Shown here: positions 6,023 to 61,444 of the stretch, piece by piece
Layout: every line of letters begins with the position of its first letter
How positions within the stretch are numbered: the stretch's first letter is position 1
From: Anaerolineae bacterium
Lineage (GTDB): Bacteria; Chloroflexota; Anaerolineae; Aggregatilineales; UBA3940
Assembly (NCBI GenBank): GCA_016926255.1
Contig: JAFGOY010000031.1
Coordinates: forward strand, 62,001 to 126,000
Reading direction: 5' to 3'
DNA: 64,000 nt
The notes under the pieces: model-generated
What the model saw: only the letters and a program-made list of their open reading frames with translations
Told to the model about the DNA's origin: nothing
The model's database searches: none
Made by a program: the position numbers and the translations under genes

Positions 6023-6751
6023 ATGGCACAGCACATCGTCGATGAAACCAAACAGGAGCACCCCACCCCGGGGGCGGTCGCCATAAAGGAGATCATCAGG
6101 ATGACGGCGTTTGGGGGGCTGATCGGTGCGCTGATCTTTCTCCCCGCCGGTCGGCTTGACTGGACGATGGGGTGGGTCTTTTTAGGGCTGTGGCTGGTGC
6201 CCAAGCTCGCCTACGTTTTCCTCCTGCTCTGGCGCGACCCCGATCTGCTGGCCGAGCGTGCCACGCGCCACGAAGATACCAAACGGTGGGACAAGATCAT
6301 CCTTCCGGTTTATTTTGTATTCGGTCTGGCAACGTTCCTCGTGGGTGGCCTGGACGGGGGCCGCTTCAGGTGGTCGGGTGAGATACCGCCAGCGGTGATC
6401 GCCGCCGCGATCATCATCTACCTGCTGGGCAATTCCCTGTCGGGTTGGGTCGTATTGACCAATCGATACGCCTCCAGCGAGGCACGCATCCAATCGGATC
6501 GCGGGCAGCAGGTGATCGCAGCCGGGCCTTACCGCTTCGTCCGCCATCCGATGTATCTGGTTGCGGTGCTCATCTGGCCGGTGACACCGCTGATCCTCGA
6601 ATCATGGTGGGCGATGATCCCCGGCACAATAACAGCGCTGATCATGGTCATTCGCACGGTATACGAGGATCGTATGCTGCTTGACGAACTCCCCGGTTAC
6701 GCCGAATACGCGCAGCAGACCCGCTTCCGGTTGTTTCCCGGTATCTGGTAG
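6023..6751 (+). CDS. Isoprenylcysteine carboxyl methyltransferase (ICMT/PEMT)-like membrane protein 1
   Basis: A 242-aa polytopic membrane protein. The start ATG at 6023 is chosen because AAGGAG lies six bases upstream. An upstream in-frame ATG at 5987 has no such site. The diagnostic motif GPYRFVRHPMYL (about residues 168-179) and the C-terminal ELPGYAEYAQQTRFRLFPGIW region are those of ICMT/NnrU/PEMT-type S-adenosylmethionine-dependent methyltransferases. Bacteria lack classical prenylated proteins, so the substrate, perhaps a lipid or thiol, is unknown. It is followed 11 bases later by a paralogue, and both probably share the promoter at 5928. The first 25 residues are a soluble tail before the first TM segment. 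Confidence 0.85.
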   Translation: MAQHIVDETKQEHPTPGAVAIKEIIRMTAFGGLIGALIFLPAGRLDWTMGWVFLGLWLVPKLAYVFLLLWRDPDLLAERATRHEDTKRWDKIILPVYFVFGLATFLVGGLDGGRFRWSGEIPPAVIAAAIIIYLLGNSLSGWVVLTNRYASSEARIQSDRGQQVIAAGPYRFVRHPMYLVAVLIWPVTPLILESWWAMIPGTITALIMVIRTVYEDRMLLDELPGYAEYAQQTRFRLFPGIW

Positions 6752-13483: not shown

Positions 13484-14248
13484 GTGAAACACTATCGACT
13501 GACAGGCGGGATACTCGCCGCCCTGACCCTGCTCACACTGGCCGCCTGCTCCACCGGAGCAGCTACCGAAAGCGAACCGGCTGAGCCGGACATCGTCGTC
13601 GTGGACGAGGAAACCGGCGTCACCAGCGTCGACGAGACGGCGCTGGCCCTCCAAATCGACACCTACCCGGCAGGCGATCTGACCGCCGAGGAAGCCGCCG
13701 GGCTGCTCTACATGCGCGAGGAAGAAAAACTGGCCCACGATGTCTACGTGACGCTGTACGACCTGTGGGGGCTTCCCGTTTTTCAGAACATCGCCAGCAG
13801 CGAACTGACTCACACCGAGGCCGTCAAGACACTCATCGACCGCTACGGGCTGGATGACCCGGCGGCGGGGACGGTCGGCAGTTTCACCGATCCGACGCTC
13901 CAATCGCTGTATGATCAACTGGTCGACAGCGGGGCGGAGTCGCTGGAAAGCGCCCTGCGCGCCGGGGCAGCGGTCGAGGAGATCGACATTTTCGACCTGC
14001 AGGAGCGGATCGCCCAGACCGATCACGGTGATATCGCCCTGGTCTACGAGAACCTGATGCAGGGATCGCGCAATCACCTGCGGGCGTTCACCTCGACACT
14101 CGAACGTCAGACGGGCGAAAGCTACGTGCCGCAGTATCTTGATCAGGCCAGCTACGACGAGATCGTCAGCACGGGCATCGAGACCGGTGGTGCCGGTCGC
14201 GGCGGCGCGGGGAATGCTGGCGGGCGCGGGAACGGTCGGGGGCGCTGA
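13484..14248 (+). CDS. DUF2202 ferritin-like lipoprotein
   Basis: A 254-aa exported lipoprotein starting at GTG 13484 with AAGGAT upstream. The signal peptide ends in the lipobox LAAC (Cys21). After a short acidic linker comes a DUF2202 domain (about 60-220): MREEEKLAHDVYVTLYDLW, LTHTEAVKTLIDRYG, IAQTDHGDIALVYENLMQGSRNHLRAF. The Glu/His pattern is that of a ferritin-like four-helix bundle, so metal binding outside the membrane is plausible. The last 20 residues are an unusual Gly/Arg/Asn tail. A remnant of this 3' end occurs again at about 15040-15134. Confidence 0.88.
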   Translation: MKHYRLTGGILAALTLLTLAACSTGAATESEPAEPDIVVVDEETGVTSVDETALALQIDTYPAGDLTAEEAAGLLYMREEEKLAHDVYVTLYDLWGLPVFQNIASSELTHTEAVKTLIDRYGLDDPAAGTVGSFTDPTLQSLYDQLVDSGAESLESALRAGAAVEEIDIFDLQERIAQTDHGDIALVYENLMQGSRNHLRAFTSTLERQTGESYVPQYLDQASYDEIVSTGIETGGAGRGGAGNAGGRGNGRGR

Positions 14249-14270
14249 CCAGCAGAGATAGTTAGAAGCA

Positions 14271-14299
14271 AAAAGAGTCCCGAAGTGGGACTCTTTTTT
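14271..14299 (+). terminator. Rho-independent terminator after the DUF2202 gene
   Basis: AAAAGAGTCCC and GGGACTCTTTT form an 11-bp stem around GAAGT, followed by further Ts. A near copy occurs at 15102-15134. The A-rich left arm means it may also end the convergent minus-strand gene. Confidence 0.9.
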
Positions 14300-14342
14300 G
14301 ATTCAATATCGGTTTGGCGATATTCCAACCACGCCACGACTT

Positions 14343-14978
14343 TTATTTTGTATCGGCTCCATGCTCAGGCGGAGCGGAAAACGACCGATTTATGTACAAG
14401 ATATACCAGTGGTCATTCAGATTCTTTTGAAATCCTGTCCGAATGTATTTATAGAAACTATATATACCGACTAAGGCAAATGCCAGGACAATCCCCAGAA
14501 AAAGCCTTTCCACCGAGAAGGATGCTATCAGTAGATAGAGATTTACAGATCCGGCAAGGAGCCAGCCTGTAATAAGTATCTGCGCGGCGTGCTGCTCCGC
14601 GCTCAACTTGACCAGTCGAGCGCCCGCCTCCGGGGATGCGACTCTGATGGCGTCGTACTTCAGAGCGGCGGAGGGTTTCTCCGGGTCTATCTTCTCTTCT
14701 TCGTCCGGCTTCTTGCGAAAAAGGGAAGGAACTTTTGTGATTCCATACAGCACGATTGACAGGATGTAAGCGATTACCGCGAACAACAAAAATGTCCAGA
14801 GGGTGATGGGGAAATCGGGATCGGCCAGGTATTCACCCAGGAGTCCAAATGCCTTCGATGGCCCAAGCCAGGTGATCGCCCAGGTCAGGATGATGACCGT
14901 GCCCGGTATGACCCTTCCAATGATGTCATATGTCACCTGGGGGATGAGTTCTACCAGCGATGAAGCAGTTTTCTCCAT
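14343..14978 (-). CDS. Small membrane protein of unknown function (accessory gene)
   Basis: A 211-aa protein starting at ATG 14978, chosen over an upstream start because GAGGAG lies at proper distance. Two TM helices (about 25-45 and 60-80) precede a cytoplasmic charged segment (FRKKPDEEEKIDPEKPSAALKYD), then two more TM helices (about 130-175) and a short tail. I do not recognise the family. The N-terminal YDIIGRVIPG motif before the first TM helix recalls small membrane proteins seen in accessory islands, but this is weak evidence. GC content is visibly lower than neighbours. The gene lies between two copies of the DUF2202 gene's terminator region, suggesting insertion. Confidence 0.7.
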   Translation of the reverse strand: MEKTASSLVELIPQVTYDIIGRVIPGTVIILTWAITWLGPSKAFGLLGEYLADPDFPITLWTFLLFAVIAYILSIVLYGITKVPSLFRKKPDEEEKIDPEKPSAALKYDAIRVASPEAGARLVKLSAEQHAAQILITGWLLAGSVNLYLLIASFSVERLFLGIVLAFALVGIYSFYKYIRTGFQKNLNDHWYILYINRSFSAPPEHGADTK

Positions 14979-15039
14979 GTCTTTCTCCTCACATAATGCG
15001 ATCATATACAGGTACCCAATCACGCACAAGCATTTGTCT

Positions 15040-15084
15040 GGCACCGCTGCCGGACGTGGTCGCGGGAACGGTCGGGGGAACTGA
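15040..15084 (+). pseudogene. Remnant of the 3' end of a DUF2202-type gene
   Basis: Just before the second terminator hairpin a frame reads GTAAGRGRGNGRGN and stops, matching the Gly/Arg tail of the DUF2202 lipoprotein. Eighteen bases (CGCGGGAACGGTCGGGGG) are identical between 14225-14242 and 15061-15078. No upstream part of the gene survives, so this is a fragment left by duplication or recombination. Confidence 0.7.
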
Positions 15085-15101
15085 CTGGCGGAGATGAAAA
15101 C

Positions 15102-15134
15102 AAAGAGAGTCCCGGTTCGGGACTCTCTTTTTGT
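15102..15134 (+). terminator. Second copy of the DUF2202 terminator
   Basis: A 13-bp stem (15102-15114 with 15118-15130) around a GTT loop, then Ts. It shares the AGAGTCCC / GGGACTCT core with the hairpin at 14271 and lies in the same direction. It may also serve the convergent EamA gene. Confidence 0.88.
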
Positions 15135-15153
15135 TTGCGGTCGGGGGGCGATC

Positions 15154-16080
15154 TCAAGTCTCCGATACTGCTGCTCTGTGTTTCGACGGCATCGACTCCA
15201 GCGAGGTCAGGCCGATGGCGGCCAACACGCACACAATCCCGATCAGGTGGCCCCACTGAAACGACTCGCCGAGCATCACATACGAGCACAGCACGGCGAC
15301 AATCGGCGTCACCCCGGTGAAGATCGCGGCGGTGCTGGTCGATACTTTGGTCACGCCATCGAACCAGAACAGGTAAGCGAGGATCGTCATCACGGGCATG
15401 GCGATGAGCACAAAACTGGCATCGAGCCAGGTGACGGCTGAAAAGTCGAAGTGCAGCGCCTCGATGATGCCCTGCGGGGCAAACAGGATCAGGGCAAAGG
15501 TGCTGACGAGTGTCGCACTCATCAATGGGGAGACGCGCTCGGCGCTGAGTTTGCGGAAGACGGTAAACGACGCCTCGCCGGTGACCGCGCCGAGCACCAG
15601 CAGGCTTCCCAGCCAGGTACTCGCCGACTGCCCGCTGCCCGGCTCCAACGCGATTCCATTCACGGCCAGTATCCCGATCAGGGCCAGGGCGACACCCGCC
15701 GCCTGATTCCAGATGACCCGCTCACGCATGAAAACCCAGGAGATCAGCGCCAGGATCGCCGGGGTGGTCGAGGTGATGATCCCCCCGACGGCGGCGCTGG
15801 TGTGTTTCAGCCCGTTCAGCAGGAACATATTGAACAGAAACAAGCCGGTAAACGCCTGCAAAAAGTTCATCAGCCAATCGCGGCGGGTCATGATGCGCAG
15901 CTCATAGCGATGCCTCCAGGCGATGGCGATCAGGATCGGCGCGACGACCAGATAGCGCAGCAGCTGACTCAGCGAGACCGGGAAGCGGGCGATGACCGGT
16001 TTGGCAACCACGATGTATGTCCCGACCAACGCCATCGCACCGGCAAGTTTCAAATAGGTAACCACTCTCTCTTTATCCAT
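15154..16080 (-). CDS. EamA/DMT-superfamily transporter
   Basis: A 308-aa membrane protein with ten predicted TM helices arranged as two EamA repeats (about 8-140 and 155-295). Each half ends in the family pattern: SAAVGGIITSTTPAILALISWVFMRERV in the first and STAAIFTGVTPIVAVLCSYVMLGESF in the second. DMT transporters export small metabolites or amino acids, and the substrate cannot be told. It lies 49 bases after an AraC-family regulator on the same strand, a common pairing. Its start codon and ribosome binding site are within a strong hairpin. Confidence 0.9.
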   Translation of the reverse strand: MDKERVVTYLKLAGAMALVGTYIVVAKPVIARFPVSLSQLLRYLVVAPILIAIAWRHRYELRIMTRRDWLMNFLQAFTGLFLFNMFLLNGLKHTSAAVGGIITSTTPAILALISWVFMRERVIWNQAAGVALALIGILAVNGIALEPGSGQSASTWLGSLLVLGAVTGEASFTVFRKLSAERVSPLMSATLVSTFALILFAPQGIIEALHFDFSAVTWLDASFVLIAMPVMTILAYLFWFDGVTKVSTSTAAIFTGVTPIVAVLCSYVMLGESFQWGHLIGIVCVLAAIGLTSLESMPSKHRAAVSET

Positions 16081-17061: not shown

Positions 17062-17080
17062 GAGCCTCGATCTGAGGCTC
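17062..17080 (-). terminator. Hairpin after the accessory nuclease-like gene
   Basis: GAGCCTC and GAGGCTC pair around GATCT. On the minus strand it follows the gene ending at 17146 and is trailed by a moderately T-rich sequence. It matches the hairpin at 18716-18734 in all but one base. Confidence 0.65.
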
Positions 17081-17145
17081 CTGGTGATCCGGTGTCGGGT
17101 TGGTGGAGGGCGATCTATTTAGCTTCACACCCCATGAATCGACCA

Positions 17146-18594
17146 TCAATGACGTTTCCTTGCTCGGCGTCTATACCTGCTTGCTGATAACTTCGGTTGA
17201 GCATTTACAAAGATAGTCTCCGGCATTCTTTTACCTTCAATTTTGAAATGTTCTTCAGCTTTTCGGAGATCAGCGATACGTTCCCTGGAACCCCCAACAT
17301 CTATAACAAGGTAGATTGCATATTCAGTTTTCTCAGCTTTTTGGTATTCACCAACTTGTACTTCAAATCCATGCAACATATATGGATTTGTGGTTAGCTT
17401 AACCTCTACCAACACTCGACTATGATACCCAGCACTTAGCTTGAAATCCACGGGACCTCTACCCGCGTTGGTTTCCCTACTTAAATCAAGATTGTTTGCT
17501 TCACAATATGAGTCCGCTACTGCATAGAATAACTTCTGAGCAGTCTCTTCTTTCCTGGGTTCCCGCCGATCATCATCTCTATAAAGAATAGTGTATAGTT
17601 GGTTGTTCTCTACCAAATCTTTAAACTTTCCACAAATCACTCTTACCACTCGTAGAACATCTTCAGGTGTGGCAAGCCGAGGAAGGCTTAATTCAAGAGG
17701 ATTTTCTTTTACAAAGCGGCGTGCTGCAAGGTACCAAACAATCTGGTCCGCTGGATCTTTATCAAAATCATATCTAACCGCAGGCAGGCCCTTGTAGGCT
17801 TTTATTACCTCCTGAAGTAAGTCTGGATAATCAAGAAAAATGGAACGTATCTGAGCTTTTGTTAATTGCTTGCGCGCTTCTGCCCATACTCGCCCTACTA
17901 ATTCATTTACTTTTTGCCTTAGAGTCTGATTTTCTGCAATCACATAGCCGATACCGTCCCAGCTATTAGCCGTAGGCAAATCTCGTAATATGTCGCAAGG
18001 GATAAGAATAATAGGGTAACCATTAAACTTGTTTCTAGGAAGATAATAAACTCTCTCTTTATAAGTTACTCTAAAAGTCTGAACCTCAAACTCACCAAAC
18101 ACTCGTTCCGAGTAAGCATACAGATCCTCGAGTATTATCCACCCTATCATGTCACTAATACGATCTGCACCTACCCCTTCTTCGAATACACCCAAAAGCT
18201 CAAAAAATTCCGGGGCTTTTATACCCGCGTCTACAATCTTCTTTGCAGTTTGGAGTACCTGACGACGAAGTTTCTTCCCCATACCACTACCTGAAGTACC
18301 GGAGGATGAGTAACCAATACACAGTCCTTTCATTTCTCCGAACTGAAAGAGCCTCCAAGCCTGTCTCCAAAAGACGTCTCCTGTATTCTCCGACTCAGCT
18401 AAAAGTTTAAGAATATCAGAATAGCGCTTTTGTATTTTCTCGTATGAACTCTTTAACTCTGGGGCTTCGGTACTTCTGAGAAGAAACGGATCTATAAAGA
18501 GATTGGTATCAATATCCAGAACAGCATCAAATGCTCCGGTAGCATCGAATGCCTCTTTATCAATTCCCAAATAGTCACTTATTGAAACCGGCAT
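17146..18594 (-). CDS. Uncharacterised protein with PD-(D/E)xK nuclease-like C-terminus
   Basis: A 482-aa protein if the ATG at 18594 is used. A GTG at 18612 is also open, and neither has an ideal ribosome binding site. I do not recognise the family. The N-terminus has a distinctive FDAVLDIDTNLFIDPFLLR segment. Near the C-terminus, PVDFK (Asp383) followed 14 residues later by VLVEVKL (Glu397, Lys399) fits the core of PD-(D/E)xK endonucleases, with a later helix (EVQVGEYQKAEKTEYAIYLVIDV) also fitting. The very C-terminus is basic (RYRRRARKRH). The gene is much more AT-rich than its surroundings and is flanked by duplicated terminator hairpins. A stand-alone defence role is a guess from these facts. 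Confidence 0.6.
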   Translation of the reverse strand: MPVSISDYLGIDKEAFDATGAFDAVLDIDTNLFIDPFLLRSTEAPELKSSYEKIQKRYSDILKLLAESENTGDVFWRQAWRLFQFGEMKGLCIGYSSSGTSGSGMGKKLRRQVLQTAKKIVDAGIKAPEFFELLGVFEEGVGADRISDMIGWIILEDLYAYSERVFGEFEVQTFRVTYKERVYYLPRNKFNGYPIILIPCDILRDLPTANSWDGIGYVIAENQTLRQKVNELVGRVWAEARKQLTKAQIRSIFLDYPDLLQEVIKAYKGLPAVRYDFDKDPADQIVWYLAARRFVKENPLELSLPRLATPEDVLRVVRVICGKFKDLVENNQLYTILYRDDDRREPRKEETAQKLFYAVADSYCEANNLDLSRETNAGRGPVDFKLSAGYHSRVLVEVKLTTNPYMLHGFEVQVGEYQKAEKTEYAIYLVIDVGGSRERIADLRKAEEHFKIEGKRMPETIFVNAQPKLSASRYRRRARKRH

Positions 18595-18703
18595 TTCCCT
18601 GCTCAGGCACACTGACTTAAAGTGGAATAGATAAAATGATAAAATGTATTACTTCAATTCAATCATATACAATCCATACACCAAACACAAGCTTTTCGCC
18701 ACG

Positions 18704-18734
18704 ATAAATAAAAAGGAGCCTCGATCCGAGGCTC
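18704..18734 (-). terminator. Rho-independent terminator of the 466-aa gene
   Basis: An 8-bp stem (GAGCCTCG 18716-18723, CGAGGCTC 18727-18734) around ATC, followed on the minus strand by CCTTTTTATTTA. It directly follows the stop codon at 18769 and is nearly identical to 17062-17080. Confidence 0.88.
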
Positions 18735-18768: not shown

Positions 18769-20169
18769 CTACACCCTTACCACATCCTCCATGCACATGC
18801 CGTTGACCAGCAGTTCCGTCATCTGCGGGCGGGGCAGATCGGTGACCGCGACAACGCCGTGGCCGGGCAGCATCGCCACAACCACCCCATCGAGCGGCCC
18901 CGCCGACCTGAACGCCTCCGACTGGAACAGCGCCGAGAGCAGCATCAGCTCCGATTCGCGCACCCCGCAGGGCAGATCGATAGGCGGGAAGCGCTCCGGG
19001 TCGGGGTGGACGATCTCGATCAGATCGGGCCGGGTGATGCTTCCGGCGGCTGGTTGGCGGTGGAAATGTTCAATCGAGAGCACCTTCGGCTGGGCACCGT
19101 CCGGCAGCACCTCGATTGTCTCGTAGCGCGAGAAATGATCTTCCAGATAGTCGAGGAACGAGTCGAAGCTGTCGACCAGCCCGGCGCGGGTCAGCCACCC
19201 GGCGACGTAGACCATGCCGTTCTCGTGGGTCTCGACCGAGGGCGCGTTGAAGGTAATCGGGCAGCCGTCGGGCAGCGCTCGGACGTAACCGGCGGGCGTC
19301 ATCCTCCCGACCGGCACGATCTGCCCGTCGTTCGGATCGGCGCTCAGCTCGATCTTGCCGCCGCCGGTGGTCGTGACACCCATCACCCGCAGATTGACAT
19401 CGAGCTGGCTGCGCATCCCCTCGCCCAGCGCGGATCGATTCAGGAAGCGGAGCACACCCCGCACCTGGTTCGATGTGCCATACTTGCCGAGCGGCACTTC
19501 ATCCTCGATGTAGCCGACCGCGCCAAGCGCGCGCCCGGTATCGGCCATCTCCCGGTGGATCGGAGAGGCGCACCACTGATCCCAGGTCAGCCGGGAGGAT
19601 TCGTCACCCTCGTGGCCGGTCAGATGCTGCGCGCCGACGTGCGCCTGGATTCGCAGCACGACGCTGTCGAAGATATCGTCCTCGCTGCCGGTGAGCAGTT
19701 GATAGTTCCCGGCCATGCTCGCCCACAACACGCGGCTGATCGACGTACCGGCAGGGTCACCTTCGACCAGAAACCCAACGTGCCCCGACTTCCGCACGAG
19801 CAGCCCGCGTGCCGTATCGAAGGGGTCTTCGTCAGGCAGGTGATCGATAGTGGAGATCACCAGCCCCATTCCGCGCGGCTTGGGCAGCATCGTCAGAAAA
19901 TCGGTCGGCAGGATTTCGGCGTCGAAGCTGGGGGAGAAGCCCATCCCCAGGTGGGCGACCGGGCCGAGCATGGTTGGCGTGTCGGGCGGATCGACGAACA
20001 AGCAGCCGCCCGCTTCGAGGCGCTCTCTGATCTGCGCCAATACATATTCTTGCAGCGGGTTGTGAGGGGCAATCGCCACCCAGACGTTCAGCGGGCGCGG
20101 CTTCCAGCAGTAATACCCGTTCGTTCGAATCATACCCCCGCCCGATAAGGCAGACTGGCCTCTTGTCAT
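18769..20169 (-). CDS. Conserved hypothetical protein, 466 aa
   Basis: A soluble 466-aa protein with no signal peptide or clear TM segment. I do not recognise the family. The opening (GYYCWKPRPLNVWVAIAPHNPLQEYVLAQIRERLEAGG) reads like a nucleotide- or ligand-binding alpha/beta fold, and a mid-section LRVMGVTTTGGGKIEL is glycine-rich. The C-terminal third (RESELMLLSALFQSEAFRSAGPLDGVVVAML...VVAVTDLPRP) looks like a separate alpha/beta unit. GAGGAG lies three bases before the ATG. It ends in its own terminator and stands alone between transcription units. Codon use is like that of the core genes. Confidence 0.75.
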   Translation of the reverse strand: MTRGQSALSGGGMIRTNGYYCWKPRPLNVWVAIAPHNPLQEYVLAQIRERLEAGGCLFVDPPDTPTMLGPVAHLGMGFSPSFDAEILPTDFLTMLPKPRGMGLVISTIDHLPDEDPFDTARGLLVRKSGHVGFLVEGDPAGTSISRVLWASMAGNYQLLTGSEDDIFDSVVLRIQAHVGAQHLTGHEGDESSRLTWDQWCASPIHREMADTGRALGAVGYIEDEVPLGKYGTSNQVRGVLRFLNRSALGEGMRSQLDVNLRVMGVTTTGGGKIELSADPNDGQIVPVGRMTPAGYVRALPDGCPITFNAPSVETHENGMVYVAGWLTRAGLVDSFDSFLDYLEDHFSRYETIEVLPDGAQPKVLSIEHFHRQPAAGSITRPDLIEIVHPDPERFPPIDLPCGVRESELMLLSALFQSEAFRSAGPLDGVVVAMLPGHGVVAVTDLPRPQMTELLVNGMCMEDVVRV

Positions 20170-31946: not shown

Positions 31947-31984
31947 ATCTATCCGAAATGAACAAAGTGAATTTACGGATAGAT
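31947..31984. repeat. ATCTATCCG palindrome, copy 1
   Basis: ATCTATCCG (31947-31955) and CGGATAGAT (31976-31984) enclose a 20-base AT-rich interior (AAATGAACAAAGTGAATTTA) that also begins and ends complementary. A near-identical copy lies at 37079-37117. It sits just before the deazaflavin-type oxidoreductase gene. Confidence 0.75.
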
Positions 31985-32000
31985 GTAGCAGGGAGCGGGA

Positions 32001-37078: not shown

Positions 37079-37117
37079 ATCTATCCGAAATGAGCAAAGC
37101 GAAATTTACGGATAGAT
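37079..37117. repeat. ATCTATCCG palindrome, copy 2
   Basis: Same 9-bp arms as at 31947, here with a 21-base interior (AAATGAGCAAAGC then GAAATTTA). The right arm touches the stop codon of the dps gene, so this copy sits at a gene 3' end. Confidence 0.75.
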
Positions 37118-37554
37118 TAGCTCTGCCACGCCTTGATCATCCACAGGCGGCCCTGCAAGCCATCGCGCATCCCGTCGAGCAGGTTGACCGTCGTGCGGTC
37201 GCCTTCGGCCTCTGCCACTTCGATTGCATTGTCCAGTGCGCTGCTCAGCGTTTCAAGGTCAGCAGCAGTACGCTTGACCATCTTGACGCCATCGGGGATT
37301 TCGGAGTCTTCCGAAATGGAAGCCTCGTCCATGACCATCGCCAGCGTGTGGAGCGGCGTCCCGCCAAGGGCGACGACACGCTCCGCCAGTTCGTCGATGA
37401 CCTCGTTGACCTCGTCGTATATGCCTTCGAACAGCGCGTGAAGCTGGAAGAACTGCTTGCCCTTCACGTTCCAGTGATAGTGCCGCATCTTCTGGTAGAA
37501 AACCGTAAAATCGGCGACCAACCCATTCAATTCTTTGACCATCTTATCTGACAT
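37117..37554 (-). CDS. dps: Dps-family ferritin-like protein
   Basis: A 145-aa ferritin-like protein of the Dps type, which protects DNA by storing iron and consuming peroxide. Ferroxidase-site residues are His25/His27-Trp28 (MRHYHWNVKG) and His39 with Glu43 and Asp47 (LHALFEGIYDEV). The start ATG 37554 has GGGAG upstream and fits family length. The N-terminus is short, without a long Lys-rich DNA-binding tail. It stands alone. Confidence 0.9.
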   Translation of the reverse strand: MSDKMVKELNGLVADFTVFYQKMRHYHWNVKGKQFFQLHALFEGIYDEVNEVIDELAERVVALGGTPLHTLAMVMDEASISEDSEIPDGVKMVKRTAADLETLSSALDNAIEVAEAEGDRTTVNLLDGMRDGLQGRLWMIKAWQS

Positions 37555-39399: not shown

Positions 39400-41529
39400 A
39401 TGACAGATCTCACCGGGCGCACGCTGGGGCAGTATGAGATTCTTGAGGAGATCGGACGTGGCGGGATGGCCAATGTCTACCGCGCCATCCAGACATCCAT
39501 GCAGCGCGAAGTAGCGATCAAAGTGCTGCCCCGCCATTTTTTGCAGGATGAAACCTTCCTCGCCCGCTTCAACCGTGAAGTACAGGTGATCTCGCAGCTT
39601 GAACACCCGGCGATCCTGCCGGTTTACGACTTCGGCGAGGTCGACGGCCTTCCCTACATTGTGATGCGCTACCTGACCGGCGGCACGCTCGCCCTGCTCA
39701 TCAACCGCAATCCTCAGGGGATGCCGTTCGGCCAGATCGCCCAGGTGATCTCGCAGGTATCCGGGGCGCTCGATTTCGCCCACCGGCGCGGGATCATTCA
39801 CCGCGACTTCAAGCCCAGCAACGTCCTGATGGACACCGACGGCAACGCCTACCTGGCCGACTTCGGCATCGCCAAAGTCAGCGAATCGACGCTCTCGTTG
39901 ACCGGCACCGGCTTCATCGGAACGCCGGGCTACATCGCCCCGGAGATGGGACACGAGGGCGCGGTTACCTCATCGGTCGATACCTATGCGCTGGGCGTCA
40001 CCCTGTTCCAGATGCTCACCGGACGCATGCCCTATTACGCCGACACCCCGATGGGCACCCTGCTGGCCCATGTCAGCAGCCCGATTCCGAACGTGCTAAC
40101 CTACCGCCCCGATGCCCCCGAAGGCATGCAGGCGATTATCAACGGGGCGCTGGCGAAGGACCCGGCCAACCGCTACCCGAACTCCGGGCAGCTGGCCGAA
40201 GACCTGATCGCCGTGACCCAGGCGACCCGCGTGCATGGGGGCGACGAAGCGGGCGGCACTCAGCCGATGGTCACCCGCAAGCACGAACAGCTTACCGGCG
40301 ATCCGAATCAGGTGCCCGATTACCTGAACGGGCAGGCCACCGCGCCGCATTCCACGCCCCCCTCACCCTTCACGCCACCCGCCCCGACCAGCGCCCGCGT
40401 GGCGGAACCGGTCAGAGTACGGAAACGCCGACCGGCGCTGGTCTGGTTGTTCACCGTGCTGGGCTGCATTGCCCTGACCGCCGCCGGGTTATTGTTCTTC
40501 TTCCGTTCACCATCGACCGCTGTACTGGCGAACAATCTACAGGGCACCTTCGATGTGCTGGCCGGTAATGTGGAACCGGCGGCCACCCAGACGCCTATCC
40601 CCACCGAAGATGCTGAATGCCCGTATGGGGGAACCTTTGTCGCCGACGTATCCTATCCCAGCGGGGCGGTTGTCGAACCGGGAGAAGTTTTCGAAAAAGC
40701 CTGGCGCATCGAAAACAACGGCTGCCAGGACTGGCCCGGCGGTACGCAGCTCGTCTTTTCACATGGCGACCGCATGAACTCCCCTGATTTCGTCGCCATC
40801 CCGGAGACGGTTGTTGGCGGGCGGGCCAATGTCTCCGTCGTCCTGACCGCCCCTGAAGAACCGGGAACCTATGTCGGGTATTTCGAGTGTGTCTCCCCGG
40901 CTGGCACGTCGTTTTGCGAGATTTTCGTACAGGTTGTCGTTCCCCGCCCCGGTGACACCCCCGTTCCCACCGAAACACCCCAACCGACTCCCACTACGGA
41001 ACCAACCAGGGAACCAACAACCACCCCGCGCCCGCTGCCCACCAACACGCCAGAACCGGTCCCGATCAGCCCGGCCAGGATCACCGCACCAATCGTCAAT
41101 ATGTCCTATGATGGTGGCACATGGAATTGCAGCGAAGCCGAACCCGAACGCTGCTGGGTCAGCGCAACAAAAGACCCGCTGGGACCGTTCAGCGGTTACA
41201 GCGTCCAGTTCGTCGGCCCCCTGCTCCATCCCGTCCCGATTGCCCACCAGACGACCGCCCGCTACTTCCTGGAATACGATCAGCCGGTGTCGATTAAAAC
41301 GGTCTATATCGAAGTAGCCGGGCTGCACGAACACTCGGTCACCGTCTATGACGAAGCGTGGACAAGGCTGGGGGGAGTCGGGCCGCAGACGCTTGGCGAT
41401 GTTGACTTCACGACAACGATCCAGGTCAATTCACCGGCTGGCACGGCGTTCTATATCGAAATGGTCGACAAAAGTTCGAAGTGGACATACATCGGCAGGA
41501 TCGACGTCACGGCCTACGCCGCCAATTGA
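39400..41529 (+). CDS. PknB-type kinase with extracellular NBR1-like Ig domain (kinase 2)
   Basis: A 709-aa receptor-like kinase. The start ATG 39400 aligns exactly with kinases 1 and 3 (MTDLTGRTLGQYEI). The kinase domain (12-275) is intact: IGRGGMANVY, Lys41, Asp136 in HRDFKPSN, Asp154 in DFG. A Pro-rich stretch, one TM helix (about 346-366) and an outside region follow. That region has an NBR1-type Ig domain (about 405-515; KAWRIENNGCQDWPGGTQLVF), a Pro/Thr linker, and a final beta-sandwich (about 560-709; TARYFLEYDQPVSIKTVYIEV) like a discoidin/galactose-binding module. Wall or glycan sensing is inferred. A bidirectional terminator follows. Confidence 0.88.
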   Translation: MTDLTGRTLGQYEILEEIGRGGMANVYRAIQTSMQREVAIKVLPRHFLQDETFLARFNREVQVISQLEHPAILPVYDFGEVDGLPYIVMRYLTGGTLALLINRNPQGMPFGQIAQVISQVSGALDFAHRRGIIHRDFKPSNVLMDTDGNAYLADFGIAKVSESTLSLTGTGFIGTPGYIAPEMGHEGAVTSSVDTYALGVTLFQMLTGRMPYYADTPMGTLLAHVSSPIPNVLTYRPDAPEGMQAIINGALAKDPANRYPNSGQLAEDLIAVTQATRVHGGDEAGGTQPMVTRKHEQLTGDPNQVPDYLNGQATAPHSTPPSPFTPPAPTSARVAEPVRVRKRRPALVWLFTVLGCIALTAAGLLFFFRSPSTAVLANNLQGTFDVLAGNVEPAATQTPIPTEDAECPYGGTFVADVSYPSGAVVEPGEVFEKAWRIENNGCQDWPGGTQLVFSHGDRMNSPDFVAIPETVVGGRANVSVVLTAPEEPGTYVGYFECVSPAGTSFCEIFVQVVVPRPGDTPVPTETPQPTPTTEPTREPTTTPRPLPTNTPEPVPISPARITAPIVNMSYDGGTWNCSEAEPERCWVSATKDPLGPFSGYSVQFVGPLLHPVPIAHQTTARYFLEYDQPVSIKTVYIEVAGLHEHSVTVYDEAWTRLGGVGPQTLGDVDFTTTIQVNSPAGTAFYIEMVDKSSKWTYIGRIDVTAYAAN

Positions 41530-42882: not shown

Positions 42883-45111
42883 TTATTTCGGAGACTCTTT
42901 GATCTCCGGCAGGATGAAGTAGAACAGGCTACCCTCGCCGACTTTACTCTCGACGCCAACCTCGCCGTCGAGCCGCTCAGTGATGCGCTGCACGATTGAA
43001 AGCCCCAGTCCATGCCCCTTCAAATTGGCCTGCACCAGCCGGGTAAACGGCCTGAACAGTTTCTCCTGCTGCTCCCCGGTCAGGCCCTTACCGTTGTCTT
43101 TCACCCAGAACCGGATCATGCCGTCACCGGCCCGGTCATACCCCAACTCGACACGGGGCGGGTCGCCGCCGTATTTCAGCGCATTGCTGATATAGTTGAC
43201 CCATATCTCTTCGATCCAGGGCGCATAGCCCTTCACGACCGGCCACTCGTTCGCGTATTCAATCTCGACCTCGTATTCGTCGCACAGCGGCCCCATCCGG
43301 GCGATCACTTCTTCAACCACCATCTCCATCGGTACCGGCCCGATGGTCAGTTCTTCCATCGTCCGCACCCCGGCCAGCAGCAACAGCGCCTGGATGATGT
43401 CGATCGCCTTGTCCGCCCCCTCCATCGAATAGCGCAGATACTGTTTAAAGGTCTCGTCGTCCAGATCGTCAAAGGCTTCGAGCAGAAGTTGTGAGTAGCC
43501 CCGGATCAGCCCCAGCGGGTTCTTCAGGTCGTGGGCGACCGTATGCGCGAACGCGTCCAGTTCCTTGACCAGTTTATCGCGTTCTTCGTAGGCGTTGGCA
43601 TTGTCGATAGCAACTGCCACCCTCGCCGCCAGCATTTTGACCGACTCGAACACTTCGTCCGAGAAGCGCTCCGGGTACTCCGTCTCGATGGTCAGGAGAC
43701 CGATCAACCCCCGATTGGATCGCAGCGGCACGCTGATCTGCGCCTTTGTCTCCGGGATGATCGCTACGTAATCGGGAACAGCGGTCACGTCGCGCACTAT
43801 CATTGCTTGCTGCTCGCGGATCACCCGCCCCGCGATGCCCTGGTCAATCGGGTGAGGCTTATCGATCACGCCCGGCGGGTAGTGCCCCAGGGCATGAACG
43901 ATGTTGATCTCGTTCCCTTCGATGACGCCGATGAAGGCGGCATCGGCCAGCGAGAGTCGCAGCGCTGCATCGATGGCGATATCCAGTACATAGGTGATAT
44001 CCAGTTTGCGCGTCAGTTCGTGGTCGACCCGCCGCAGTGTCCTCAGGCGATCCAGCGTGGCCGTCAGTTCCATCTGCACTTTCACCGGCTCGGTGATGTC
44101 ACGCAGGATGATCAACCGTCCCACGTATCCCCGCCGTTGACCCTTCAGCGGCGTAATTCGCAGATCGTAATGTCTTTCCTCTCCTTCGAATGTGATAGAG
44201 ATTTCTTCGTGCGCCTCCTCGACGTTTTCGTAGGCTTTGATCACTTCGATCCAGTCCGGGAGAACCTCGGTAGTTGGCATACCGATCACCTGATCGAGGC
44301 CGGGTTTGGCCAGCCTGCGGGCAGCCGGGTTCAACTCCAGAATCCGGTGCTGTGAATCGGTGATAATGACCGCATCCCCCATGCTCGCCAGCAGCGCGTC
44401 GCGCGCCACCGGCACGATATCGAAAAGCTTGTAGCCAAACAGCCCAATCGCTATACAGATACAGGTTATCGTCAATGCGTATGAGTTCGTATCCAATCCA
44501 GTCGGGGTAATTCCGGTCTGATAGAGCGCGTAGGTTATCAGGGGCACAGTCAAACCGATCAGAACGATCAGGGATTGGTTGCGATACAGCGCCTCGGAGC
44601 GAGCGACATGCTGGGCGACCAGCACAACGCCGATGACTGCGGAAAATATGTAATACCCGACCTGTGCCCAGTACCAGATTCCCTTGTCAAACGTGACAAA
44701 GTATTGATCCCCGGTCTGGATCAGTCTCATGTTGTTCCAGATCATGCCATGCAGATCGTTTGTCCAGGCAAAGGCGAGAACAAAAACCGGGATGACGAAC
44801 AACGCCACCATGTTGACGGCAGTCAGGTAGCGTTCGTTGCCGGTGTAGTCCAGCACCAGGGCCAGTATCAGGGCCGGGAAGAACACAACGCCGAGATATT
44901 CGAATTTGAGCCAGAAGCGCACCTGTTCGAGCGTGGTGCTGCCCAGTTCCATGATGTAGCCGATCAGATAGATGAAAATAGCGAGGCTGATCAATCCCAG
45001 GTAGATCGCACCGGGGGCAGAACGGCGGTGCCAAGACAGGAGAGTAATACTCAGCACGACAACCGTACCGAGGATAAGCGGGATTGCATACGAAGAAAGA
45101 TGCCAGCTCAT
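42883..45111 (-). CDS. 7TM-PAS-GAF sensor histidine kinase
   Basis: A 742-aa membrane sensor kinase. The N-terminus is a seven-helix sensory domain (about 1-220) of the His_kinase_7TM type. Then follow a PAS domain (about 240-350; ILELNPAARRLAKPGL), a GAF domain (about 375-510), the dimerisation helix with phospho-acceptor His527 (AFAHTVAHDLKNPLGLIRGY), and the ATPase domain (N box WVNYISNALKYGG, G1 VKDNGKGL, G2 GHGLGLSIVQRI). No response regulator gene is adjacent, so it is an orphan here. The input signal is unknown. Confidence 0.92.
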   Translation of the reverse strand: MSWHLSSYAIPLILGTVVVLSITLLSWHRRSAPGAIYLGLISLAIFIYLIGYIMELGSTTLEQVRFWLKFEYLGVVFFPALILALVLDYTGNERYLTAVNMVALFVIPVFVLAFAWTNDLHGMIWNNMRLIQTGDQYFVTFDKGIWYWAQVGYYIFSAVIGVVLVAQHVARSEALYRNQSLIVLIGLTVPLITYALYQTGITPTGLDTNSYALTITCICIAIGLFGYKLFDIVPVARDALLASMGDAVIITDSQHRILELNPAARRLAKPGLDQVIGMPTTEVLPDWIEVIKAYENVEEAHEEISITFEGEERHYDLRITPLKGQRRGYVGRLIILRDITEPVKVQMELTATLDRLRTLRRVDHELTRKLDITYVLDIAIDAALRLSLADAAFIGVIEGNEINIVHALGHYPPGVIDKPHPIDQGIAGRVIREQQAMIVRDVTAVPDYVAIIPETKAQISVPLRSNRGLIGLLTIETEYPERFSDEVFESVKMLAARVAVAIDNANAYEERDKLVKELDAFAHTVAHDLKNPLGLIRGYSQLLLEAFDDLDDETFKQYLRYSMEGADKAIDIIQALLLLAGVRTMEELTIGPVPMEMVVEEVIARMGPLCDEYEVEIEYANEWPVVKGYAPWIEEIWVNYISNALKYGGDPPRVELGYDRAGDGMIRFWVKDNGKGLTGEQQEKLFRPFTRLVQANLKGHGLGLSIVQRITERLDGEVGVESKVGEGSLFYFILPEIKESPK

Positions 45112-45312: not shown

Positions 45313-46884
45313 ATGCAATATGAGTATCCTTCTCAACCCACTCCTGAAGTGCCTCCCCGGAAACGCCGGGCCCTGTTCCCGGCAGGTAAGCCGGTGCAGG
45401 CAGCGCTCGTCGGCACGCTGATCGGGCTGGCCGGGTTTACGTTCATTGCCGGGGTGATGATCCTCAGCTTCTATTTCTATTACCAGGTATCCGAACGTAT
45501 TTTGCTCGGCGTAGCGGTCGGCGAGATCGAACTGGGCAACCACTCAATCGATGAGGCCGCCGACCTGCTCGAAGACACCTGGAACGCCGACGAGTACATC
45601 CACCTCTCGGACGGCGAGCAAACCTGGGCGGCATCGGCCCGCAGCCTGGGTCTCGCCATCGATGCGCAGGCGACCGCACAGCAGGCGCAGCGAATCGGAC
45701 GCAGCGGTAAATTCTTCGCCGATATCGGCGCGGCGCTCACCGGGCTGTTCGGCAGCTATCAGGTGACGCCGGTCGTCGCCCTCGATCGCGACACGGCCCG
45801 CGAAGGGCTGACCGAATGGGCCGACACCATCACCGCCGAACCGGTCAACGCGACCATTGCCTTCGAAGGTGGGCAGGTCGTCGCCGTGCCTGCCATGCCC
45901 GGTTATACCCTTGATGTCGAGGCCAGCCTCGACGTGCTCGCCTATGCCCCCGGCGCGATTGTCGCCGAGGGGACGCTCCCGCTGGCCCTGACGCCGATCC
46001 AGCCTGCCGTCACCGATGTGTCGCCGGTGCTGGCCGAAGCCCAACAGCTTCTCGGCGGCCCGCTGACACTCACCGCCTACGATCCCGTCACCGACGTATC
46101 GACCACTTTTGACGAGCAGCCCGAAGTCGTCGCCTCGTGGCTGGCCGTCGAAGACGGCGAGAGCGGCCCGCAGATCACCGTCGATCAGGCGGCGCTCGAA
46201 GATTACTTCGCCACGCTCGAAAACCGCTTCGGCACCGGCTTGACCGTCGACGCTGAGAAAAACACCGAACCGGTCGCCGAGGCGCTGAGGGCAGGCGAGG
46301 CTCCGACGATCATCCTCGGCCACACCCCGACCGTCTACACCGTCCAGGCCGGTGACTCCCTGATCAGCATCTCCTGGGATGTCGGGATGCCCTACTGGCG
46401 CATCCTCGAAGCCAATCCCGGCATCGACGAGAACTCGCTGACGGTCGGCCAGATGATTACCATCCCCTCGAAGGATGACCTGCTCCCGCTGCCCGTCGTC
46501 CCGAACAAGCGGCTCAAAGTCAGCATCGGCAACCAGCGATTGTGGGTCTACGAGAACGGCACGATGGTTCACGAGTTTGTCATCAGCACCGGCATCGAGG
46601 ATTCACCCACCCAGCCGGGCGTCTTCCAGGTGCAAACCCACGAATTGAACGCCTATGCGAGCAACTGGGATTTGTTCATGCCCCATTTCCTGGGCATCTA
46701 CGAAGCCTGGCCCGGCTTCATGAACGGCTTTCACGGGCTGCCCACCCGCAACGGCGGACAGATTCTCTGGGCCGCTTCGCTGGGTCGCCCAACCTCCTAC
46801 GGCTGCATCATCCTCGACATTCCCGACGCGGAGTGGCTGTACAACTGGGCCGACGACGGCGTTGTCGTCGAGGTTGTGGAGTGA
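45313..46884 (+). CDS. L,D-transpeptidase with PG_binding_4 and LysM domains
   Basis: A 523-aa membrane-anchored wall enzyme. A cytoplasmic Pro-rich start, one TM helix (about 33-58), a VanW-type peptidoglycan-binding region (PG_binding_4, about 70-230), a LysM repeat (about 340-388; YTVQAGDSLISISWDVG and NSLTVGQMITIP) and a YkuD catalytic domain (about 398-523). The catalytic cysteine is Cys498 in SYGCIIL, with a preceding conserved His/Gly loop (GFHGLP). It crosslinks peptidoglycan through 3-3 bridges or attaches proteins. It is followed by UPF0173 with a 24-base gap and SD AAAGGAG. Confidence 0.92.
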   Translation: MQYEYPSQPTPEVPPRKRRALFPAGKPVQAALVGTLIGLAGFTFIAGVMILSFYFYYQVSERILLGVAVGEIELGNHSIDEAADLLEDTWNADEYIHLSDGEQTWAASARSLGLAIDAQATAQQAQRIGRSGKFFADIGAALTGLFGSYQVTPVVALDRDTAREGLTEWADTITAEPVNATIAFEGGQVVAVPAMPGYTLDVEASLDVLAYAPGAIVAEGTLPLALTPIQPAVTDVSPVLAEAQQLLGGPLTLTAYDPVTDVSTTFDEQPEVVASWLAVEDGESGPQITVDQAALEDYFATLENRFGTGLTVDAEKNTEPVAEALRAGEAPTIILGHTPTVYTVQAGDSLISISWDVGMPYWRILEANPGIDENSLTVGQMITIPSKDDLLPLPVVPNKRLKVSIGNQRLWVYENGTMVHEFVISTGIEDSPTQPGVFQVQTHELNAYASNWDLFMPHFLGIYEAWPGFMNGFHGLPTRNGGQILWAASLGRPTSYGCIILDIPDAEWLYNWADDGVVVEVVE

Positions 46885-60205: not shown

Positions 60206-61444
60206 TCAGAACCGAACCTCGACCGCCGCCGCGCCGTTCTCATCGACCGTAAACGCGGCTTCCTGATCGTGCCACCGGACGGCGTAATCGCCCAGCCAGC
60301 CCTCGAATCGGACATTGCCCCCGGCATCGGTCGCTATCGTCGTCGGCGCGAACCACCACTCGCCCTTGACCAGCCCCATCAGTGCATCGTAGGCCGGTTT
60401 CCGAGACAGGTCTTCCCGCACATATCCCGACGGCGCTTTCAGCCAGCCGCCATCGACCACGCCCCAGTTGGTGATCGCCTCGACGCGTGGATTCGCCAGC
60501 AGCGTCTTGTAGAACTCGACCACTTCCTCGGCCTGGCGCTGTTCGCCTTCGGGAGTCGTCGGCCACTCATCGACCTTGTGATCGTTCAAGTCGACGATCT
60601 CCGGCGGCATCAGTTCGCCCGACACCAGCGACACCTCGGTGAAGTGCAGCGGCAGCCCGAAGTGATCGTAGCGTTCGAGTATTTGCAGCGTCTTTTCCTG
60701 CCCCCAGTAACCCTGGTGCATGTGCGATTGCAGCCCGATCACATCGATGCTGATCCCCGCTTCGAGGCAGCCTTCAATCAGGATTTCGTAGGCAGTCGAC
60801 AGGTCGAAGTCGTTGATCAGCAGCGTCGCGTCCGGGTTCGTCTTGCGGGCCGCCTCGAACACCGTCCGCACGATCCCGATCCGCCCCAGATGCTGCGCCA
60901 GCTTGGTGATCCCGTTCTCCTCTTTCTCGAAGATGGGCATGATCACTACCTCGTTGATCACGTCCCAGGTATCGATCACCCCGGCGAAGTCGGCCACGTC
61001 TCGCCTGATCCGCGCTACCTGCGCTTTGGCGATCTCCTCGTTCGACATGTCGAGCAGCCAGGGGGCGGTCAGCGTGTGCCAGCAAAGCGGATGCCCTTTG
61101 ACCAGGCAGCCGCGATCCGCGAACCAGCGAGCCGTCTTGAGCAGGCGCTCGGTGTCGGGTTTGCCGCGCTCCGGCTCGAATCCCCGCCAGTAGAAAGGCA
61201 GGGTGATCTGGTTATACAGGTCGAGCAATATCTGGTTGTGGCGTTCTGCGTAGACTTTCTCCTCGCCTTCGAGTTCGCCGCTTGCCAGCGGAATGATGTC
61301 GAAGCCAATGCAGCCGAACAGAAATTTGTGCTTTTGCTGCTCGATCTCGACCGCCTGCTGCGCCAGCGGCGCGCCATCAGGTCCCACGATATGCAGCGTC
61401 ACCTCCGCCGAACGAATCTCTTTGATTGTCTGGTCAACATTCAT
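60206..61444 (-). CDS. GH10 endo-1,4-beta-xylanase, cytoplasmic form
   Basis: A 412-aa family 10 hydrolase cutting beta-1,4-xylan or xylo-oligosaccharides. The acid/base is Glu165 (WDVINEVV) and the nucleophile is Glu270 (PLHFTEVSL). The substrate-binding VKGHPLCWHTL is clear. A carbohydrate-binding-like domain at the N-terminus (about 10-45; EVTLHIVGPDGAPLAQQAVEIEQQ) and a beta-rich C-terminus (about 345-412) frame the barrel. No signal peptide is visible, which suggests action on imported oligosaccharides. ATG with GGAGAC upstream. Confidence 0.9.
   Translation of the reverse strand: MNVDQTIKEIRSAEVTLHIVGPDGAPLAQQAVEIEQQKHKFLFGCIGFDIIPLASGELEGEEKVYAERHNQILLDLYNQITLPFYWRGFEPERGKPDTERLLKTARWFADRGCLVKGHPLCWHTLTAPWLLDMSNEEIAKAQVARIRRDVADFAGVIDTWDVINEVVIMPIFEKEENGITKLAQHLGRIGIVRTVFEAARKTNPDATLLINDFDLSTAYEILIEGCLEAGISIDVIGLQSHMHQGYWGQEKTLQILERYDHFGLPLHFTEVSLVSGELMPPEIVDLNDHKVDEWPTTPEGEQRQAEEVVEFYKTLLANPRVEAITNWGVVDGGWLKAPSGYVREDLSRKPAYDALMGLVKGEWWFAPTTIATDAGGNVRFEGWLGDYAVRWHDQEAAFTVDENGAAAVEVRF

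Follow-up and report, generated by a model that had tools for sequence, protein, structure and literature searches.

Duplicated gene tail and terminator around an orphan membrane gene in an Anaerolineae genome, with tail stubs at five further genes

Introduction

Cis-mobilizable elements typically carry gene ends that restore their target, and serial accretion of such elements is common. The minimal mobile elements of Neisseria are small cassettes that are swapped between conserved genes, with uptake-sequence terminators near their borders. Insertion with long target duplication was described for restriction-modification genes of H. pylori by Nobusato et al. (2000), as far as that work is summarized in PMC1643837, PMC3031569, and PMC2749054. 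Homology-facilitated illegitimate recombination is an observed process (PMC3240628); it is described as rare, and has been proposed for Vibrio immunity-gene arrays with displaced 3' ends and for Rhs genes (PMC5361080). The locus described here, in which an orphan membrane gene lies between two copies of the tail and terminator of a DUF2202 gene, resembles each of these systems in part.

Sequence and scans

The window, i.e., the whole stretch of DNA that was analyzed (64,000 nucleotides), is positions 62001-126000 of contig C55 in a draft assembly of 4.61 Mb (82 contigs, 2.7% contamination); coordinates given without a contig are those of the window. The closest protein relatives of this genome are in the Chloroflexota, Anaerolineae. 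We read 1.25 of the 4.61 Mb in stretches, comprising 900 kb (C55, C57, C40, C82, and C50) and a second 350 kb. In the 900 kb, both flanks of every gene were compared, as was every gene with its surroundings; the second 350 kb was scanned for further tail stubs. Gene calls for the scans were simple ORF picks, and the scans were devised after the first stub cases were known.

The DUF2202 locus

The features of this locus are as follows.

13484-14248, plus strand: DUF2202 lipoprotein gene (the host gene), intact, 254 aa, Gly/Arg-rich tail (ORF; PF09968, E=8e-58)
14222-14259, plus strand: left copy, inside the gene, of the tail, the stop and the start of the 3'UTR (direct repeat, 84%)
14270-14298, plus strand: left terminator-like hairpin, AAAAAGAGTCCC-GAAGT-GGGACTCTTTTT
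14343-14978, minus strand: accessory gene, orphan membrane protein of 211 aa with about four predicted TM segments by hydropathy (ORF; ATG after AGGAG)
15040-15084, plus strand: tail stub, 14 in-frame codons GTAAGRGRGNGRGN and TGA, a DUF2202-type C terminus
15100-15132, no strand assigned: right terminator-like hairpin
15154-16080, minus strand: EamA transporter gene, the right neighbor, convergent with DUF2202 (PF00892, E=1e-38)

The DUF2202 tail and terminator are repeated 832-836 bases downstream. An earlier note on this DNA had reported 18 identical bases from the last DUF2202 codons at 14225 and 15061, and this run was confirmed inside a 38-base direct repeat (14222-14259 and 15058-15095) with 32 identical bases (84%); within the stub, nucleotide likeness to the DUF2202 tail is clear starting at 15058. 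The terminator hairpin, also said to be duplicated, is present in both places as a strong terminator-like stem (z of about -5), the hairpin repeat being 34 bases long (79%), and a joint local alignment of 14222-14303 with 15058-15136 scored 71 against a 99% point of 30 for random segments of the same contig. The right-hand copy does keep a stop after its Gly/Arg tail, as had been noted, since it reads GTAAGRGRGNGRGN followed by TGA, and it resembles the DUF2202 tails of two relatives (L018 and L019), which end in RGGRGNGRG and a stop.

These sequences are essentially confined to this locus. The stem GAGTCCC-N5-GGGACTC occurs at these two sites only in the 4.61 Mb, and the Gly/Arg tail has no other match in the genome with fewer than three mismatches and one further site with three. 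The two hairpins differ by paired changes, so that the stem is kept. As the right hairpin is situated 21 bases past the end of the minus-strand EamA gene, it probably terminates that gene too. Elsewhere on this contig, two similar GCCTCCC...GGGAGGC terminators (C55:5893-5912 and 6221-6238) lie about 330 bases from each other, and no long ORF separates them.

A single copy of the DUF2202 gene was found in the genome. Among Chloroflexota DUF2202 proteins there is one (L022:900-2220) in which a Gly-rich linker connects two DUF2202 domains within a single frame. A literature search of partial coverage found no mention of DUF2202.

The gene between the copies is about 50% GC compared to 59-65% in its surroundings, which agrees with its earlier description as an AT-richer gene bracketed by direct copies. 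Its product had no Pfam match above the cut-off, no NCBIfam or PADLOC match and no significant PHROG. Searches of 60 related and 399 sampled Chloroflexota genomes turned up no relative, chance SecY matches aside, nor was there any match in viral contigs, plasmids or phages. Two distant matches (L131 and L132) were rejected as homologs of the membrane protein because they are SecY and coincidental. We also rejected a transposon insertion with a short (2-15 bp) target site duplication, as the membrane protein is the sole ORF and the duplication is about 80 bp.

One explanation for this layout is that the membrane gene took the place of the body of a second DUF2202 gene, which once ended at 15084. 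Several of 80 loci in other lineages do have tandem or fused DUF2202 copies, and the stub is an in-frame DUF2202-type tail with its own stop and terminator. Against this, there is no trace of a DUF2202 body at the right copy beyond about 14 codons. Since only a short coding stretch is common to both copies, the DUF2202 locus alone cannot decide the matter.

A second, weaker locus

The same layout had been thought to occur again at 17062-18734. The features there and next to it, together with a promoter-like element that is shared with the DUF2202 locus, are as follows.

17062-17080, minus strand: second hairpin copy, GAGCCTC-N5-GAGGCTC, beyond accessory gene 2
17146-18612, minus strand: accessory gene 2, 488 aa, 42% GC, possible C-terminal nuclease-like region
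18716-18734, minus strand: terminator hairpin of the 466-aa gene, GAGCCTC-GGATC-GAGGCTC then CTTTTTATTT
18769-20169, minus strand: host gene of this locus, 466 aa, no Pfam family
14995-15030, minus strand: promoter-like element CTTGTG-N15-GTATATGAT-N-G-N-ATT, upstream of the membrane gene
18656-18691, minus strand: a further copy of this element, upstream of accessory gene 2

The likeness to the DUF2202 locus holds in part. The hairpin is duplicated (score of 34 vs. a 99% null of 27), but no earlier host codons are, and beyond the hairpin the two sites agree only weakly (39 of 57 bases, the stop region among them and at an unchanged offset). The stem GAGCCTC-N5-GAGGCTC has three occurrences in the genome. 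The third (C55:27610) precedes a lower-GC nuclease-like gene, the two together spanning C55:27609-29451, and was rejected as a bracketed insertion, as it has no second copy; that gene is 47% GC and its C terminus looks like an Mrr-type nuclease. Similar hairpins at C55:53327 and 55010 were likewise rejected because they belong to tandem related genes. The 466-aa protein has relatives of 54-55% identity in two family members. Relatives of its gene in two genomes (G001 and G008) have a different downstream gene and hence do not provide an empty site.

Based on its matches (phrog_30194, E=5e-114; PADLOC PDC-M36A, E=1e-10; NOV_C, E=0.12), accessory gene 2 is a candidate defense gene. It is sparsely distributed, with homologs in 7 of 399 other Chloroflexota genomes, and none of these homologs has clear duplicated flanks; no match was found in phages. 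The 36-base promoter-like element is found upstream of both accessory genes only, in a search of the genome allowing up to three mismatches. Its sharing by these two lower-GC genes is suggestive only, as the pattern was picked after both copies had been seen.

Tail stubs elsewhere in the genome

Six host genes in the 1.25 Mb, DUF2202 among them, have nine tail stubs in total. The other five host genes are as follows.

C40:40928-41689: HD-domain gene, tail KLLEWRAELPVKPEL and stop, compared to a 15-codon stub KLLEWRADLPVKPES and stop at 39656-39700
C50:46662-48443: permease, stubs of about 45 codons and a stop at 45342-45477 and of 21 codons at 44500-44564
C50:94918-96480: amylase-like gene, three stubs at 98099, 98822, and 99583
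C50:72735-73244: DUF1684-like gene, stub at 75366, beyond methyltransferase-like and deacetylase-like genes
C50:53546-54889: glycerate-kinase-like gene, stub with a stop at 61282-61372, 6.4 kb downstream

Each stub comprises part of the last ~45 codons only, lies on the same strand as the host gene and is downstream of that intact gene, mostly beyond lower-GC accessory genes. The HD-domain stub, for example, lies beyond a WD40/TolB-like lipoprotein gene of 47% GC, and at the permease locus (C50:43931-48443) there are lipoprotein or membrane genes of 45-47% GC between and beyond the two stubs. At the amylase-like locus (C50:94918-99700), the genes between the stubs, as named from their sequences, encode a lipoprotein, a HicAB-like pair, a response regulator and a DUF433/DUF5615-like pair. 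Most stubs end in a stop, and most of those outside DUF2202 consist of codons without a clear copy of the terminator. In the identical scan, copies of gene heads were few and weaker.

The earlier suggestion that terminators are recurrent entry points for accessory genes is thus modified by these data: recurrence was found, at five further host genes, but what recurs is the 3' gene end and not the terminator. Terminators as a general target were rejected, as the two stems are locus-specific and duplicated flanks are absent from most low-GC genes. When the proposed search around other low-GC genes was carried out in the 900 kb, 5 of 61 had similar flanks, which indicates that tail-duplicating insertion is not the general entry route. 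The pattern is also patchy, since C50 carries four of the six host genes and the second 350 kb contained no new stub, although one gene there lies between similar hairpins. A control of 400 kb from another genome of the order yielded at most one or two candidate tail copies.

Several other repeats were observed during the scans. An upstream sequence of 42-79 bases is present in three direct copies (C40:85478, 86350, and 87173) that bracket two successive genes, the second of 44% GC, and similar terminator-like hairpins (AAAAAACGAGGCCGGGGA...) at C32:18949 and 21063 flank a 648-aa gene. A tail match at C55:93031 and 99079 was rejected as a stub because it is a palindromic repeat. In the window, the palindromic repeat ATCTATCCGAAAT...ATTTACGGATAGAT occurs at 31947-31990 and 37079-37121, has a match in C57 too, resembles a dispersed REP-like element and is once situated inside the end of a coding ORF.

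The recurrence of stubs bears on several explanations. The earlier note had left the choice between an insertion and a tandem duplication with replacement; tail-duplicating insertion fits the DUF2202 locus, and its recurrence is supported by the stubs at the five further genes, which decay of tandem copies fits poorly. Such decay would require tandem copies to have arisen and been lost separately at six unrelated genes, and to have done so three times at the amylase-like gene; we consider it unlikely. We regard it as very unlikely that small elements integrated site-specifically at gene 3' ends through a recombinase supplied in trans, which would leave the tails as attL/attR-like sites. Consistent with such integration, the tail copies are at 3' ends only, and target-restoring gene ends and serial accretion are typical of such elements; against it are the lack of a recombinase-like gene in the inserts read, at least six unrelated target genes, and boundaries that vary within one target (gene nt 1458, 1492, and 1462 in one host gene; nt 1647 and 1678 in another). 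Variable boundaries on the same host tail argue against a fixed attachment core. Least probable of all is that strain variants were joined into one contig during assembly. Although the assembly is a draft with the contig number and contamination given above, the copies are only about 80-94% identical with no long exact overlaps, several loci are affected, and the inserts have their own genes and a different base composition.

Divergence between stubs and host tails

The dN/dS for stubs relative to host tails was 0.29 for all stubs. With one stub per gene it was 0.41, for which neutrality was rejected (p=0.003) and a value of 0.5 was not (p=0.39). One permease stub has six silent and no replacement changes. 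As the differences are mostly silent, part of the divergence between stubs and hosts arose under protein constraint. The dN/dS values would fit an incoming allele that had already diverged, or else a stub that was duplicated and drifted while the gene remained constrained; we lean to the former based on the permease stub and the paired changes in the DUF2202 hairpins.

A drifting stub is expected if a break or a transposition-like entry duplicated a target of about 20-140 bp, with the copies identical at first. This close rival ranks behind homology-facilitated illegitimate recombination, and we consider it possible, if on the unlikely side. Its layout matches the restriction-modification gene insertions of H. 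pylori, the one-stub-per-gene dN/dS would fit half-constrained divergence, and it would explain the copies of hairpin and tail without a donor homolog. It leaves the preference for gene ends unexplained, however, and the permease stub and paired hairpin changes point to constrained divergence.

Proposed additive insertion at gene 3' ends

Our tentative preference, held at somewhat short of even confidence, is that the membrane gene was added horizontally at the DUF2202 3' end, most likely by homology-facilitated illegitimate recombination. The incoming DNA would have had, beside the accessory gene, a diverged form of the 3' end of the host gene, and would have paired with the resident gene through this 3'-end homology, while its other end would have been joined to a site just before the resident stop codon with no homology involved. 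DUF2202 would remain complete, and the resident tail would be left as a stub, i.e., a partial tail with its stop and terminator beyond the membrane gene. Since no host gene is disrupted and the majority of stubs supply a stop (for DUF2202, also a terminator), such insertions should be tolerated and can pile up, as they may have done at the permease and amylase-like loci.

Several observations favor homology-facilitated illegitimate recombination: the duplicated and unique tail and hairpin with a lower-GC orphan inside; the nine stubs at six genes, all downstream, on the same strand and from the last ~45 codons; the serial arrays at the permease and amylase-like genes; and the excess of silent changes, together with the permease stub and the paired hairpin changes. 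Stub boundaries that vary within one host gene are what illegitimate joins are expected to produce. Counting against this mechanism, a dN/dS of 0.41 is also expected from simple duplication and stub drift, random illegitimate joins should leave longer stubs as well as the short tails that were seen, the process is described as rare, and the second 350 kb had no new stub. Canonical end joining lends no support, as Ku was not found in the genome. Neither an empty site nor a donor was found, the nearest DUF2202 relatives being only ~57-62% identical, and insertion as the event is therefore an inference.

We also considered a dedicated process in this lineage that would place cassettes at the 3' end of ordinary genes, each time restoring the tail. 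This seems doubtful; if true, gene ends would be serial landing sites and the displaced stubs would record the order of arrival. If additive insertion at gene ends is correct, the stubs would be fossils of gene gain that needed no transposase or integrase, giving its site, order and rough age, and accessory genes (toxin-antitoxin-like pairs and perhaps candidate defense genes) could enter while host genes stay unbroken. A scan for short downstream copies of C termini could measure tail-stub insertion in any genome.

Comparison with known insertion systems

As with cis-mobilizable elements and genomic islands that are integrated at the 3' ends of genes, a gene end is duplicated beyond the insert and accretion is possible; in contrast to them, no recombinase was seen in the inserts read, and there are many different targets and no fixed core. 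The small cassettes with terminators near their borders are similar to the minimal mobile elements of Neisseria, but the hairpins here are locus-specific, in contrast to uptake-sequence terminators, which are a genome-wide repeat.

The resemblance to insertion with long target duplication is that an accessory, often lower-GC gene is flanked by long, variable direct repeats of the target with no transposase. In the available accounts of the H. pylori work, such insertion was shown by comparison of two strains, for restriction-modification genes, whereas no empty site was found for our loci. Here, moreover, the repeat is a gene 3' end and the copies have diverged, and the cargo is mostly lipoproteins, toxin-antitoxin-like pairs and orphans, the membrane orphan included, and not the restriction-modification genes of the usual case.

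In common with homology-facilitated illegitimate recombination (PMC3240628; PMC5361080), a new module would push the old 3' end downstream and there are serial arrays; the one homologous anchor and one illegitimate end of that process are proposed here from sequence. The 3' end that is displaced at effector and Rhs loci codes for another toxin domain (PMC5361080), whereas here it is a redundant copy of an ordinary gene's end. Our limited literature search found no paper that describes tail-stub scars of ordinary genes. The scars themselves are shared with known kinds of insertion, and in this genome they are redundant tails of ordinary genes with mixed cargo.
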